64,000 bases of DNA from Flagellimonas sp. MMG031 (lineage in GTDB: Bacteria > Bacteroidota > Bacteroidia > Flavobacteriales > Flavobacteriaceae). The stretch covers positions 1,366,501 to 1,430,500 of the forward strand of contig NZ_CP157804.1 in assembly GCF_040112705.1 (NCBI RefSeq), given 5' to 3'. The position numbers were made by a program, and so were the translations under genes. The notes beneath the pieces were generated by a model that ran no database searches, was not told where the DNA came from, and saw only the letters and a list, made by a program, of their open reading frames with translations. Below, piece by piece: positions 17,442-22,718 of this stretch (position 1 is the first letter of the stretch; every line of letters begins with the position of its first letter).

Positions 17442-17468
17442 TCCACGAAGTTCAAATATGTATTGTAA

Positions 17469-17568
17469 GTTATCAAGAAAGGTGGAGGGAATAGACCCTT
17501 TGAAGCCTTAGCAACCCTTGACGCTTGTCGAGAAGGTGCTACATTCTATCCCACAGGGAATAGATAAC
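17469..17568 (+). promoter_or_regulatory. SAM-I riboswitch of the metX-thrA fusion gene
   Basis: The leader has the S-box core AGAAAGGTGGAGGGA, CCCTTTGAAGCC, TTAGCAACCCT and GAAGGTGCTA. P1 is closed by GTTATC at 17469-17474 and GATAAC at 17563-17568. A compact P4 is formed by the CTATCCC and GGGAATAG arms. The aptamer ends about 80 bases before the coding start; a GGCC-CTTG-GGCC hairpin near 17622 lies close to the start codon, but no convincing terminator is present, so control of translation is more likely. Confidence 0.93.
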
Positions 17569-17648
17569 ATCACGGGTAGTTTCTGCCATCTTTTCTTATA
17601 ACCTTATTTTTTAGTAATCATCGGCCCTTGGGCCTATCACTTTTTTGT

Positions 17649-20600
17649 ATGGATTTAAGGCATTTGGCCATATCGGATTTTAAAACAGCAACCGGGTCTG
17701 TTCAGGACATAGAATTGTCCTATCAGGTCTTTGGGAAACCCTTGCACACGGCACCGATTGTTTTGGTAAATCACGCACTTACCGGCAATTCCAATGTGGC
17801 AGGAAAAGATGGATGGTGGTCCGATTTGATCGGGGAAGGAAAATGTATCGATACGGACACATACACCATTTTGTCCTTTAACATTCCGGGCAATGGTTTC
17901 GATGGTTTTGTGATCGATAACTACAAGGATTTTGTCGCCGCCGATATAGCAAGGATATTTTTATGGGGATTGAAGGAACTCGAGATTGCAAAGTTGTTCG
18001 CTATTATAGGTGGCTCATTGGGAGGTGGAATCGCTTGGGAAATGGCAGCTCTCAACCCAAACATTACGGAACATTTGATTCCGGTGGCATCCGATTGGAA
18101 ATCCACGGACTGGCTCATTGCCAATTGTCAGATTCAGGAACAATTCTTGGTCAATTCCAAACAGCCTGTGCACGATGCACGCATGCATGCGATGTTGTGT
18201 TACCGTACTCCGGAATCCTTTAAAGAACGATTTAAAAGAAGCACCAACGAAGAACTCAAGGTGTTCAATGTGGAATCCTGGTTGATGCACCACGGTAAAA
18301 AATTACAGGAGCGTTTCCAATTGTCCGCCTATAAGTTGATGAACCAACTATTAAAGTCCATCGACATTACCCGGAACGGTGAAGAAGCCTTTAAGGCGTT
18401 GCAGGAGAGCGATACCAAAATCCATATCATTGGGGTCAATTCCGATCTATTCTTTACTGCCGAGGAGAACAAGGAAACCTTTAAGCGATTGGCACAGGCG
18501 AATACAAATGTGACCTATGGGGAGGTACAATCCGTGCATGGACATGATGCTTTTTTGATGGAGTTTGAACAACTGGAAAAGTTGTTGGAGACCGTTTTTC
18601 AGCAAAATACGGAGCGAATCAAAATTTTGAAGTTTGGCGGAAAGTCGTTGGCCAATGGGGAGGGAATTGACCGAGTGTTGAACATCATCCATAAAAGATT
18701 TGACGAGAAAGAACACTTTGCCGTGGTGGTATCCGCCCGTGGAAAAGCTACGGACCAGCTGGAGAGCTTGTTGGAAAAGGCGTCCAAAGGCGCAGACTTT
18801 GATACAGACCTAAAAAAGTTTGTCGACTATCAAAAGAACAATTTCGATGGCGTAGACCTTTCAGAAGAACTGGCTACAATTGAAAAGATACTGAGAGGCG
18901 TCGCCTTAACGGGTGATTACAGTTTAAAGACCAAGGATGAGGTGCTATCTTTTGGCGAATTGTTGTCCGCCAAATATGTAACCGCTGCGCTCAATGCCAG
19001 GGGATTAAAGGCAAAGCTTTTTGATTCGAGGAAGTTGATCACTACGGACGATAACTATAGCAATGCAGAGGTGGACCAAGGCACATCCAAGGAAAATGTG
19101 CTCCGCTATTTCCATGAACTGGAAAAAGATACCATTCCCATTGTTACTGGGTTTATCGGTTCCAACCGGGATGGCTCTACAACAACCTTGGGCAGAAATG
19201 GAAGCAATTATTCTGCTGCCCTTTTGGCCAACTTTTTGGATGCGGGCGAGTTGATCAATTATACCCATGTGGACGGTATTTTTACCGCCAATCCGGATTT
19301 GGTGGAAGATGCCCGCTTGATCGATGTGATATCCTACGGAGAAGCCAACGAATTGGCCAACTTTGGGGCAAATATTTTGCATGCGAAGACCATTATTCCC
19401 CTTATTGAAAAAAACATACCCTTACGCATTTGCAATACCTTTAATGATGATAACCAAGGGACATTAATCGGTCCAAAGACCGATAACGGCGGAATCAAAT
19501 CCCTTTCCGTACTGGACCATATGGCACTCATCAATTTGGAGGGCAGGGGATTGCTCGGTAAAGTGGGGGTGGACATGCGAATTTTCAGGGCCTTGGGCCA
19601 AAATGGAATTAGTGTGGGCATTGTGTCACAGGGTTCCTCCGAAAGGGGGATTGGCTTGGTGGTCGATGCCTCCGAGGCGGATAAGGCCAAAAAAGTGCTC
19701 GACCAAGAGTTCGAAACCGATTATTCCTCCCAGGATATCAATCAGATTTCCGTAGTTAAGGATGTTTCGGTCATTTCCATCGTGGGAATGGACCTGAGCA
19801 GCTTCCACAAACCCTTTAATGCCTTGGCCAAAAACCAGATTATTCCGTTGTTGTTTAATAATACGGTTACGGGCAAGAACGTGAGCATGGTGGTCAAAAA
19901 ATCTGATTTGAACAAAGCCATCAATGTCATTCATGGACAGATTTTCGGTATTGCCAAAAAAATCAATCTGGCCCTCTTTGGGCATGGTAATGTGGGAGGT
20001 ACGTTGATTAGCCAAATATTGGATTCAAAAAACAACATTGAGGAGCGAAAAGGTATCGACCTAAAGGTGTTTGCCGTAGCCAATTCCAGAAAGGTACTTC
20101 TAGATGCTTCGGGCGTGGGATCGGATTGGAAAGAACGTTTGGAAAAGGAAGGTCAGCCCTATCAACTGGAAGACATTACTGCCTTTGCCAAAAAGTACCA
20201 TTTGGAGAACTTGATCGCCGTGGACAATACGGCGAGCAAAACTTTTGTGGAGCAATATGAGCCGTTGATAGCCCATGGTTTTGATTTGGTCTCTTCGAAC
20301 AAGATTGCCAATACCCTGAGCTTTGAGAAATACAGGTCCATACGAAAATGCTTGGACAAAAATCAAAAACAATACCTCTACGAAACCAATGTTGGTGCAG
20401 GTCTTCCCTTGATAGATACCATCAAACTATTGCACCTTTCCGGGGAGAACATTACAAGAATCAAAGGCGTGTTTTCGGGGTCACTGTCCTACATTTTCAA
20501 TACCTTTTCTGGTAAGGACGTGGCATTTTCCGAAATTGTTAGGGAAGCGATGCAAAAAGGCTTTACGGAACCCGACCCAAGGGAAGATTTGTCAGGTAAT

Positions 20601-21032
20601 GATGTGGGACGAAAATTGTTGATTTTGGCCCGTGAGTTGGATCTTCAAAATGAGTTTTCCGACATCAGTGTGCAAAACCTGATTCCCGAAGAACTTCAGA
20701 CCTTGGAGTTTGAACAGTTTATGGAGCGCATTGATGAAATGGACCATAACTACAAGGGAATCAAGGATAGCCAAGAATCGGGTCACGTGTTGCGTTATGT
20801 GGGCGATTTGCATGGCGATTTGCAGCAGGATAAGGGGATTTTAGAGGTGAAATTGGTTTCCGTACCTAAAGAAAGTGCTTTGGGACAGGTAAAAGGTTCG
20901 GATTCCATTATCGAAATTTATACAGAATCTTACGGAGAACAGCCCTTGGTGATTCAAGGCGCTGGCGCCGGCGCCGCGGTGACAGCGAGAGGCGTCTTCG
21001 GGGATATTTTACGGATAGCGGAGAAAGTGTAG
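17649..21032 (+). CDS. Fusion: homoserine O-acetyltransferase / aspartokinase / homoserine dehydrogenase
   Basis: A 1127-residue protein joining three activities of methionine synthesis. Residues about 1-315 are a MetX-type alpha/beta hydrolase with nucleophile S123 in IIGGSLGGG and the acid and base in NSDLFF and VHGHDAF. Residues about 325-770 are an aspartokinase starting KFGGKSLANGEG with TLGRNGSNYSAALL and ACT regulatory repeats. Residues about 771-1127 are a homoserine dehydrogenase with the NADPH motif FGHGNVGG. The aspartate-semialdehyde dehydrogenase step between kinase and dehydrogenase is not included. The ATG at 17649 replaces a TTG seven codons upstream. A SAM-I riboswitch precedes it, so the whole protein is likely repressed by SAM. 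All three catalytic cores look intact. Confidence 0.92.
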   Translation: MDLRHLAISDFKTATGSVQDIELSYQVFGKPLHTAPIVLVNHALTGNSNVAGKDGWWSDLIGEGKCIDTDTYTILSFNIPGNGFDGFVIDNYKDFVAADIARIFLWGLKELEIAKLFAIIGGSLGGGIAWEMAALNPNITEHLIPVASDWKSTDWLIANCQIQEQFLVNSKQPVHDARMHAMLCYRTPESFKERFKRSTNEELKVFNVESWLMHHGKKLQERFQLSAYKLMNQLLKSIDITRNGEEAFKALQESDTKIHIIGVNSDLFFTAEENKETFKRLAQANTNVTYGEVQSVHGHDAFLMEFEQLEKLLETVFQQNTERIKILKFGGKSLANGEGIDRVLNIIHKRFDEKEHFAVVVSARGKATDQLESLLEKASKGADFDTDLKKFVDYQKNNFDGVDLSEELATIEKILRGVALTGDYSLKTKDEVLSFGELLSAKYVTAALNARGLKAKLFDSRKLITTDDNYSNAEVDQGTSKENVLRYFHELEKDTIPIVTGFIGSNRDGSTTTLGRNGSNYSAALLANFLDAGELINYTHVDGIFTANPDLVEDARLIDVISYGEANELANFGANILHAKTIIPLIEKNIPLRICNTFNDDNQGTLIGPKTDNGGIKSLSVLDHMALINLEGRGLLGKVGVDMRIFRALGQNGISVGIVSQGSSERGIGLVVDASEADKAKKVLDQEFETDYSSQDINQISVVKDVSVISIVGMDLSSFHKPFNALAKNQIIPLLFNNTVTGKNVSMVVKKSDLNKAINVIHGQIFGIAKKINLALFGHGNVGGTLISQILDSKNNIEERKGIDLKVFAVANSRKVLLDASGVGSDWKERLEKEGQPYQLEDITAFAKKYHLENLIAVDNTASKTFVEQYEPLIAHGFDLVSSNKIANTLSFEKYRSIRKCLDKNQKQYLYETNVGAGLPLIDTIKLLHLSGENITRIKGVFSGSLSYIFNTFSGKDVAFSEIVREAMQKGFTEPDPREDLSGNDVGRKLLILARELDLQNEFSDISVQNLIPEELQTLEFEQFMERIDEMDHNYKGIKDSQESGHVLRYVGDLHGDLQQDKGILEVKLVSVPKESALGQVKGSDSIIEIYTESYGEQPLVIQGAGAGAAVTARGVFGDILRIAEKV

Positions 21033-21074
21033 TTTGAGCATGTTTCAAAGCAAAGAAATGAGTTATTATATGCA

Positions 21075-21186
21075 GTGGATAAGCGTAGTCGAAATAGCTA
21101 GTTGAAAAAATCGTAAAGGTGGTTGAGCACAGTCGAAATAGTTGATTCAAATAATCGTTACGGTGGCTGAGCGTAGTCGAAGCCAC
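21075..21186 (+). repeat. Three-unit array with 44-bp period, last unit an exact palindromic element
   Basis: Units start at 21075, 21119 and 21163, exactly 44 bases apart. Each begins GTGG and contains an AGC..AGTCGAA core; the first two continue with related AT-rich tails ending near AATCGT. The last unit (21163-21186) is a 24-base near-palindrome with GTGGCT and AGCCAC arms, and it is repeated perfectly in inverted orientation at 21511-21534. The array fills the space between the metX fusion gene and the GIY-YIG gene. A degenerate fourth unit may overlap the metX fusion stop near 21032. Confidence 0.8.
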
Positions 21187-21194
21187 ACTGAAAA

Positions 21195-21509
21195 ATGAAA
21201 GGATACCTCTACATATTGGAATGCACAGATGGAAGTTACTACACCGGCAGCACTATTGATTTGCAGAAACGAATAAATGAACATCATAATGGCCAAGGTG
21301 CAAATCATACGAAGAAAAGATTGCCGATTAAGTTGGTATATGTAGAAGAGTATTTAAATATTGCGACGGCTTTTGAACGTGAAAAACAAATTCAGGGATG
21401 GTCGAGAGCAAAGAAGGAAGCATTGATAACTGGAGATTTTGATGCGCTACCAAATTTGTCCGAGTGCAAAAACGAGACGAATTTTAAATATTATAAGGAG
21501 AAAAAATAA
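21195..21509 (+). CDS. Stand-alone GIY-YIG endonuclease domain protein
   Basis: A 104-residue protein consisting of a single GIY-YIG nuclease domain, similar in style to the YhbQ/URI group. The GIY equivalent is GYLYIL (residues 3-8), the YIG equivalent is YYTG (16-19), and the likely catalytic Arg and Glu are R26 in DLQKRINEH and E63 in EREKQIQGW. No DNA-binding or partner domain is attached. Its ATG lies 8 bases after a 24-base palindrome, and an exact inverted copy begins one base after its stop, so the gene is tightly boxed by terminal inverted repeats. It interrupts the methionine genes but has no obvious role there. Mobility or repeat processing is inference. Confidence 0.9.
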   Translation: MKGYLYILECTDGSYYTGSTIDLQKRINEHHNGQGANHTKKRLPIKLVYVEEYLNIATAFEREKQIQGWSRAKKEALITGDFDALPNLSECKNETNFKYYKEKK

Positions 21510-21510
21510 A

Positions 21511-21534
21511 GTGGCTTCGACTACGCTCAGCCAC
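21511..21534 (-). repeat. Inverted 24-bp copy closing the GIY-YIG unit
   Basis: This is identical over all 24 bases to the reverse complement of 21163-21186. With that copy it bounds a 372-base unit that holds nothing but the nuclease gene. Being nearly palindromic itself, it could also fold as a hairpin at the 3' end of the transcript. Confidence 0.9.
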
Positions 21535-21551
21535 CGAAAAAAGTAAAGACA

Positions 21552-22718
21552 ATGAAAGACAAAAAATTCGAAACAAAAGCCATACGCACACAAATGGAGC
21601 GCAGTCAAAATTTGGAGCATTCCAGCCCTATTTACATGACTTCCAGCTTTGTTTTTGAGGATGCCGAAGATATGCGTGCGTCTTTTGCAGAAGAAAAGGA
21701 ACGAAATATTTACTCCAGATATTCCAACCCCAACTCCTCCGAGTTGATCGATAGGGTTTGCCAAATGGAGGGAGCGGAAAGCGGTTTTGCCTACGCCTCG
21801 GGTATGGCAGCGGTTTTTTCGACCTTGGCCGCACTGTTGGATGCAGGGGATCATGTGGTTTCGTCCAAAAGTATTTTTGGTTCTACCCATACCCTGTTCA
21901 CCCAGTTTTTTCCGAAATGGAATATCGAAAGCAGTTATTTTGATGCCAATGACCTTTCGGAAATCGAAGGATTGATTCGGCCCAATACCAAAATTCTTTA
22001 CGCAGAAACTCCCACAAACCCTGGGGTGGACGTCCTGGATTTGGAGGAACTGTCTCGAATAGCCAAGAAACACGGCCTCATTTTTATTGTTGATAACTGT
22101 TTTGCGACACCCTATTTACAACAACCCATAAAATTTGGTGCGGATTTGGTCATCCACTCCGGTACCAAACTAATGGACGGTCAAGGAAGGGTCTTGGCTG
22201 GTATCACCGTAGGTAGCGGAGCATTGATGGATAAGGTTTATCGCTTTTCCCGAATAACCGGTCCGGCATTGTCGCCCTTCAACGCCTGGGTGCTATCCAG
22301 AAGTTTGGAAACCTTGGCGATCCGTGTGGATAGGCATTGCGAAAACGCCCTGAAATTGGCTACCTACCTGGAAGGCCATGATAAAATTGAATGGGTAAAA
22401 TACCCATTTTTGAAGTCACACCCCAAATACGAAATAGCCAAAAAGCAGATGAAAGCAGGAGGCTGTGTAGTTGCCTTTGAAGTGAAGGGAGGCCTGGAAG
22501 CTGGTCGGAATTTTTTCGATAGCATCCAACTGTTGTCCCTCTCCGCCAACTTGGGCGATGCTCGAAGCATTGTTACGCACCCTGCATCCACCACTCACAG
22601 TAAACTGACCACCGAAGAGCGCAATGCCGTTGGTATTTCTGATGGAATGGTTCGGGTGTCGGTAGGTCTGGAACACATTGACGACATTATAGCGGACATC
22701 GCCCAAGCATTGGGCTAA
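21552..22718 (+). CDS. O-acetylhomoserine sulfhydrylase (Cys/Met PLP family)
   Basis: A 388-residue PLP enzyme that replaces the acyl group of activated homoserine, most likely with sulfide, giving homocysteine. It has the family features YSRYSNPNSSELIDRVCQMEG, the cofactor-stacking YAETPTNPG, the Asp in FIVDNCFATP and the PLP lysine in VIHSGTKLMDGQGRV. The neighbouring MetX activity makes O-acetylhomoserine, so sulfhydrylation of that ester is the best assignment; MetZ-type or cystathionine gamma-synthase activity cannot be excluded from motifs. It lies 17 bases after the GIY-YIG unit. Confidence 0.88.
   Translation: MKDKKFETKAIRTQMERSQNLEHSSPIYMTSSFVFEDAEDMRASFAEEKERNIYSRYSNPNSSELIDRVCQMEGAESGFAYASGMAAVFSTLAALLDAGDHVVSSKSIFGSTHTLFTQFFPKWNIESSYFDANDLSEIEGLIRPNTKILYAETPTNPGVDVLDLEELSRIAKKHGLIFIVDNCFATPYLQQPIKFGADLVIHSGTKLMDGQGRVLAGITVGSGALMDKVYRFSRITGPALSPFNAWVLSRSLETLAIRVDRHCENALKLATYLEGHDKIEWVKYPFLKSHPKYEIAKKQMKAGGCVVAFEVKGGLEAGRNFFDSIQLLSLSANLGDARSIVTHPASTTHSKLTTEERNAVGISDGMVRVSVGLEHIDDIIADIAQALG

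Follow-up and report, generated by a model that had tools for sequence, protein, structure and literature searches.

A small GIY-YIG nuclease gene enclosed by inverted palindromic repeats in Flagellimonas: a candidate REP-like element

Described repeat systems and the Flagellimonas locus

Many bacterial genomes are rich in short palindromes, of which only the RAYT-linked ones are known to have a widely accepted enzyme. The closest published system known to us is the Ssn family: a study in Nat Commun (2025) reportedly presents GIY-YIG site-specific single-strand nucleases, among them Neisseria Ssn with its NTS repeat, and thousands of homologs with targets of their own. Ssn is reportedly linked to transformation. 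The likeness, a small GIY-YIG protein tied to its own dispersed short repeat, extends by association only to the window (the whole stretch of 64,000 nucleotides analysed, from Flagellimonas sp. MMG031). Set beside Ssn, the window element presents a gene sealed between inverted copies, with a TGAG-loop-CGAA core carrying a GGT tag, as well as empty and occupied sites within one genus and a tested match between palindrome type and protein clade.

The RAYT/REPIN system (REPtron) comprises an enzyme gene between inverted palindromes, palindromes dispersed singly and in inverted pairs, and a match between palindrome and enzyme, all of which recur here. The difference lies in the enzyme, which in the window is a GIY-YIG protein and not a Y1/HUH tyrosine transposase. 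A profile search for Y1_Tnp (PF01797) finds no match in the window's genome, and on that ground a RAYT origin of the repeats there is rejected.

The CGTC-tagged REPs (Di Nocera et al. 2013, PMC3733652) are dispersed palindromes of 20-40 bp, often arranged as inverted dimers, and that paper describes them as having no dedicated transposase. G. forsetii is named there among the CGTC-positive species, and the term GIY is absent from the main text. The systems share dispersed palindromes and inverted dimers. Palindromes of several GIY clades bear a CGTC/TGTC tag, those of the T1 and T3 clades for the most part; it precedes 19/21 GIY-side copies of palindrome type T3, 73/95 of T1, 17/28 of T4 and, under a stricter pattern, 17/85 of T2. 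The window type, in contrast, is tagged GGT (47/52 copies at the genus loci) rather than CGTC/TGTC, and its 6-bp stem with a 12-nt open region differs from the 8-9 bp stem and 4-5 nt loop of CGTC REPs. Among the titles listed in a literature search, outside whose scope most subscription journals and all preprints fall, none concerns GIY-YIG genes flanked by dispersed palindromes; the accessible parts of a Moraxella paper (PMC9465073) and of a GIY-YIG phylogenomics paper (PMC1564403) have no bearing on the pairing of gene and palindrome.

Inside the window, the arms at 21163-21186 (GTGGCTGAGCGTAGTCGAAGCCAC) and 21511-21534 are, by direct sequence comparison, exact reverse complements over 24 bp, and with their flanks the arm-to-arm match extends to 29 nt at 97%. 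The sole content between them is a 104-aa GIY-YIG ORF at 21195-21509, separated from the left arm by 8 nt and from the right arm by 1 nt. Both points, together with the nearly palindromic form of each arm, had been claimed in an earlier note on this DNA and are borne out; on folding, each arm gives a 6-bp GTGGCT/AGCCAC stem with a 12-nt open region. The features along the window are:

17467..17570, + strand: SAM (S-box) riboswitch just upstream of 17628 (Rfam); context, outside the element
17628..21032, + strand: upstream gene, an abhydrolase (metX-like)/aspartokinase/homoserine dehydrogenase fusion
21075..21093, + strand: decayed direct palindrome copy, core TAAGCGTAGTCGAA
21119..21137, + strand: decayed direct palindrome copy, core TGAGCACAGTCGAA
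21163..21186, + strand: left palindromic repeat, GGT-tagged, with a 6-bp stem around the core TGAGCGTAGTCGAA (sequence match, folding, tag count)
21195..21509, + strand: 104-aa single-domain GIY-YIG nuclease (PF01541, E 2e-18; aligned relatives; AlphaFold2 model)
21511..21534, - strand: right palindromic repeat, an exact inverted copy of the left arm, starting one base past the stop codon
21552..22718, + strand: downstream gene, a Cys/Met metabolism PLP-dependent enzyme

The two decayed direct copies, which the earlier note had missed, lie to the left of the element at a spacing of 44 bp. The fold energy of the arm stands at z of about -1.9 against shuffles, 11 and 6 of 200 shuffles being equally good on the two strands. 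In a set of four folded sequences, the window arm's two strands modestly beat their shuffles and two other palindromes do not do so at all; energies computed for individual copies offer weak evidence of a hairpin. With up to 3 mismatches allowed, the 24-mer has 0 matches in shuffles of the window, and the two-arm arrangement is no accident.

The dispersed repeat and the GIY-YIG protein

Throughout the genome, searched as a single contig of 3.76 Mb, the 14-nt core TGAGCGNAGTCGAA occurs in 51 exact copies, against 0 for a reversed-pattern control, and at 74 places with at most one mismatch. The full 24-mer recurs at 5 places elsewhere, always with 2-3 mismatches. The frequency of the core outside this locus speaks against an accidental arrangement, which the earlier note had tied to absence of the repeat from the rest of the genome. 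Among the 74 places, the window locus is the sole +/- pair enclosing 100-1000 bp; one -/+ pair elsewhere (51749/52267) also encloses a span of that size.

The three base pairs flanking the core covary, each being Watson-Crick in 50/51 copies and realized by several pair types: T-A 26 and C-G 24 in the first pair, G-C 22, A-T 15 and C-G 12 in the second, and G-C 24, C-G 20 and T-A 5 in the third. Pairing fades beyond the third flanking pair, and the core itself is constant by definition. In 98% of the copies the arms reach at least 3 bp; exchanging arms among copies lowers this share to 20%, and it is therefore pairing that is conserved and not sequence alone. The copies avoid coding sequence: long ORFs hold 7/51 of them but 72% of positions drawn at random from these loci. 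Ahead of the stem, the tag GTCA is found in 16/51 copies and GGT in 14/51, the window gene's own arms carrying GGT.

In the same genome PF01541 has 13 matching places, and at ten of these the frame measures 94-155 aa. A palindrome that is related to the window's but distinct from it, GGTCGAGCGCAGTCGAGACC, encloses the gene at C1:3304597 in inverted copies, two on each side, and the genes at 2371174 (L105) and 3735149 (L100) have T2- and T4-type palindromes, respectively, on both sides. The gene at 2488329 has imperfect arms of the CTTGT-loop type, its neighbours being hisA/hisF-like as judged by eye. One further locus (L014) shows a single palindrome copy about 120 bp away, and at another (L015) none was seen.

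Three small GIY-YIG genes of this genome stand in tandem at C1:510163-511105 (L012, L013, L017), parted by AAAAGCACCTCACAAATGAGGTGCTTTT palindromes. Palindromes nested exactly in the loops of other palindromes were also observed, in 7 distinct cases with four outer stems (L221, L003, L036, L038, L040, L042; own genome). Such exact insertions may mark the loop as the site where DNA opens, or may alternatively descend from one composite.

The GIY-YIG catalytic domain is defined by a conserved Tyr, Tyr, Arg and Glu that serve as catalytic residues. In the window protein, PF01541 covers residues 2-74 (E 2e-18), leaving a single GIY-YIG domain, and Y6, Y16, R26, H30 and E63 are among the positions invariant across 30 aligned relatives; the domain and the four catalytic residues place it within the GIY-YIG superfamily. 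By sequence, its solved relatives are the UPF0213 proteins 1zg2 and 1ywl, small stand-alone GIY-YIG proteins of the same fold and size. These two are also the best fold matches in a search that used an AlphaFold2 model of moderate confidence (pLDDT 77); at E 0.001 that search returns only the two UPF0213 structures and then Slx1, and no link to repeats appears among its matches. The gene is under purifying selection, with a median pN/pS of 0.14 over 36 pairs of nine orthologs, whose synonymous sites are near saturation.

Several other identities were considered and rejected. The single 104-aa domain without extra domains (NUMODs) argues against a GIY-YIG homing endonuclease, and the group I intron endonuclease model scores 19.8 bits, far below its cut-off of 56.05. 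Between 17000 and 23500 no intron-type RNA was found, Rfam matching the SAM riboswitch only. An anti-phage defence role is rejected with 0 PADLOC families matched, and a phage gene with no match among the PHROGs.

Relatives across the family, beyond it and within the genus

The family survey took in 149 genomes, one per genus and the window's own included, with window-protein matches at E 1e-10. Relatives are present in 61 of the 149, and the fetched loci hold 108 genes, or 106 after duplicate removal, which still cover all 61 genomes. With palindrome patterns that were chosen from those very loci, the same palindrome type lies on both sides of 55/106 genes and on one side of 28/106, none of the listed types being found at 23/106; control windows in the same loci give both sides in 2, one side in 10 and none in 184 of 196. 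In 37 of the 55 two-sided cases the copies closest to the gene are oriented + to its left and - to its right, the other orders accounting for 8, 7 and 3 (18/55). A pattern-free comparison of 250-bp flanks yields an inverted score of at least 16 at 25/106 loci, against 1.0 expected with swapped flanks; the direct-repeat scores at the 106 loci stem partly from tandem gene copies and carry no swapped-flank control. The neighbouring genes mostly differ, a homologous neighbour being shared by 90/5499 locus pairs, 22 of these on both sides, and by none that involve the window locus. The earlier note had asked whether homologs are consistently flanked by inverted copies and had held that orthologs at varied loci without repeats would speak for accident; relatives at varied loci do carry flanking repeats, on both sides in about half of the cases.

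The type of palindrome follows the protein. On the protein tree, types T1-T4 require 6 changes against 36.1 when shuffled, with 0/200 shuffles as low, in a count that takes in 78/106 rows, leaves five unlabelled rows outside the groups and uses a tree with many weak forks. As gene and flanks are inherited together, the match between type and clade shows lasting linkage and is by itself no proof of recognition. Inside the window clade, loop type is weakly clustered (12 changes against 15.7, 1/200 shuffles), and coevolution at this level was rejected as a weak signal, from a tree that included a frameshifted row (L284) with a very long branch.

A separate scan of named genomes, which may overlap in species with the family survey, found at least 575 relatives, of which the best 80 were kept. 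The closest among the matches listed belong to Muricauda/Allomuricauda/Flagellimonas, followed by Arenibacter, Winogradskyella, Flavobacterium and Aquimarina. The best 80 of at least 575 also include Planktothrix (Cyanobacteriota), Candidatus Kuenenia (Planctomycetota), Aggregatibacter kilianii (Gammaproteobacteria) and Chitinispirillaceae (Fibrobacterota), along with Laspinema, a Nostocales genome, Sulfurovum and Ignavibacteriales, several of these distant relatives being MAGs in which contigs may be misbinned. At the 75 loci with enough flank among these best 80, a hairpin with a 3-bp stem and a TGAG..CGAA core lies within 250 bp of 68 and on both sides of 37, against at least one hairpin in 12/270 control windows. 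A direct-repeat score of at least 20 is reached at 22/75 loci, against 1.7 with the swapped-flank control. In A. kilianii strain PN_528, inverted arms of 37 nt that have a CTTGT loop and two mismatches enclose the gene.

The number of repeats rises with the presence of the matching gene. Outside GIY loci, T1 copies have a median of 20 in the 29 genomes with a T1-clade gene against 1 in the 120 without (p 1.8e-10), and T2 repeats a median of 6 in 22 genomes with a T2-clade gene against 1 in 127 without (p 8e-5), the clades being read off the protein tree and the tests ignoring phylogeny. The association also crosses types over all 149 genomes: higher T1 counts accompany window-clade (p 0.001), T2-clade (p 0.001) and T3-clade genes (p 0.006), and higher T2 counts accompany T1-clade (p 0.002) and T4-clade genes (p 0.02). 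Part of the link therefore joins repeat-rich genomes to GIY genes in general. A narrower test was limited to the 59 genomes in which at least one of five clades is represented and examined the T1, T2 and window clades. In that subset the number of T1 copies is higher with a T1-clade gene (p 5e-4), the values for the T2 and window clades being 0.53 and 0.2; for T2 copies the rise goes with the T2 clade (p 0.007), against 0.25 for the T1 clade and 0.96 for the window clade. Among these 59 genomes the link between repeat and gene looks specific for the three clades tested. Within the genus, T1-type copies have a median of 53 with the gene (n=18) against 28.5 without (n=42; p 0.004). Some genomes commonly hold inverted pairs at a spacing of about 40 bp; in one of them (G125), the 26 of 29 places that are listed include six such pairs.

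Of the 149 genomes, 14 hold at least 15 T1 copies although neither a T1-clade nor a window-clade gene is found at E 1e-10. These 14 together have 76 PF01541 matches, and all frames below 200 aa were inspected, at 30 loci (some with longer frames), at 12 more and at L077 and L143. The sole T1-flanked match is a decayed GIY copy with stops, L346 in genome G127, with T1 on both sides, which suggests gene loss in repeat-rich genomes for G127 only. In G080 (51 T1 copies) and G097 (19), the PF01541 search finds no small GIY-YIG match at all, which may reflect a lost partner or another source. The 14 repeat-rich genomes without an intact matching gene indicate that repeats persist, and may arise, without it. 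Y1_Tnp is present in 58/149 family genomes, making another enzyme possible in some.

Within the genus, the downstream gene was found in 42/59 relatives searched, and the best 30 loci (the window's own and 29 of the same genus) were inspected. The met-operon junction holds the GIY gene and hairpins in 9 of these, no insert in 20 and only an inverted hairpin pair in 1 (L163); empty sites at the same locus, which the earlier note had proposed to look for, thus exist. The gap measured from the end of the upstream frame is 2-5 bp in 18 empty sites and 35 and 48 bp in the other two. In 16/20 empty sites the upstream stop overlaps the downstream start (ATGA in 10, TAATG in 6), and the element therefore parts two closely coupled genes.

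Close orthologs (at least 68% identity) are present in 18/60 genus genomes. With 17/18 adjoining the same upstream gene, and one (G181) on that gene's other, upstream side, the element behaves within the genus as a conserved resident more than as a freely jumping one. Presence and absence on the flanking-gene tree take 8 changes against 7.9 when shuffled, showing no clustering, and gene divergence tracks that of the downstream host gene (rho 0.77), a pattern as for descent with losses. Strongly supported branches force at least 6 of these changes, among them sister pairs with 99-100% support. The hairpins beside genus orthologs are retained with compensating stem changes. Taken together, the genus data agree with a long-established resident that has time and again been lost, replaced or regained as a clean unit, losses and gains being indistinguishable here.

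Proposed activity and competing explanations

The locus is probably a self-contained REP-like element, consisting of a small GIY-YIG endonuclease gene and two inverted copies of a hairpin that its protein would bind, cut and disperse. These three activities are what we infer from evidence that is correlation throughout. The protein would bind and nick the hairpin in single-stranded or extruded DNA, as during replication, repair or DNA uptake, with the nick at or near the conserved TGAG-loop-CGAA core. Through breaks and their repair, hairpins, pairs of hairpins and at times the entire gene unit could be copied or removed, the route of spread being repair copying, recombination or true transposition. 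The expected outcome would be dispersed hairpins, with the gene persisting as a source copy. The earlier note had proposed a system parallel to REP/RAYT, with a GIY-YIG nuclease in the place of the Y1 transposase, and had called it undescribed. The substitution holds by association, through flanking, type-clade match, dispersal, empty sites and the missing Y1 match; the word 'undescribed' is too strong in view of the reported Ssn family and of the CGTC REPs published in 2013.

A different reading makes the nuclease a servant of its host: as in Ssn, it would cut the repeat in ssDNA and tune uptake or recombination, and the repeats would be kept as marks and not as selfish elements. Strong purifying selection (pN/pS 0.14), the compensating stem changes in hairpins kept across the genus, the long residence at one place (17/18) and the mostly intergenic position of the hairpins all agree with such a role. 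A mobile unit nevertheless accounts better for the patchy presence (61/149 genomes), the empty and occupied sites in sister species, the several gene copies per genome with differing palindrome types and the spread over phyla, which makes the host-serving role rather unlikely. Should something else spread the palindromes, be it a Y1/RAYT transposase or general repair, the GIY-YIG gene would only hitch-hike between two of them. The Y1_Tnp matches in 58/149 family genomes and the 14 T1-rich genomes without an intact T1- or window-clade gene point that way; this is nonetheless improbable given that the window's own genome has 51 copies yet no Y1_Tnp match, that palindrome type follows GIY clade and that two sets of GIY loci have flanking palindromes far in excess of control.

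The palindromes could also be expression signals of the small gene, such as terminators or RNA-stability hairpins, and bear no relation to the protein's activity. They do lie tight against the gene, 8 nt ahead of it and one base behind it, and copies elsewhere are mostly intergenic. The terminator reading is rejected, however, as 20900-21700 contains no terminator-like site, the upstream copy and the inverted order are left unexplained, and the dependence of type on protein clade and the genome-wide copies also speak against it, so that expression signals have little to commend them as an account. That a common intergenic hairpin came to lie on both sides of one gene by chance is hardly credible, even with a core as frequent as it is in this genome: the window locus holds the only +/- pair enclosing 100-1000 bp among 74 places, 55/106 relatives are two-sided against 2/196 in the control, and the named set contradicts chance as well (68/75 against 12/270 in the best 80 of at least 575).

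Beyond this locus, the REP-like element may be one instance of a wider class, a proposal made tentatively and falling a little short of probable. GIY-YIG nucleases would be the missing partners of the REP class that takes in the CGTC REPs and their GGT-tagged cousins. As autonomous elements of gene plus hairpin, they would cut and disperse hairpins of their own, parallel RAYT/REPIN without a tyrosine transposase and cross phyla as a unit. The pairing spans the Flavobacteriaceae and beyond, and lends itself to a direct and cheap test. The small GIY-YIG genes with their type-matched palindromes also form a natural nuclease-target series from which hairpin specificity could be learned.

Variants of the gene itself were observed among the relatives. 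Small GIY-YIG genes occur in tandem duplicate, with repeats around them, at L052/L081 and L110. In L239 (3001-4305) and L257 (NF040656, E about 1e-129), the GIY-YIG frame continues in frame into a GYDIA-family GHMP kinase, and the same run-on was judged by eye in L247 and L056. The linker in L239 and L247 repeats RLRSA.EN, resembling a translated palindrome.
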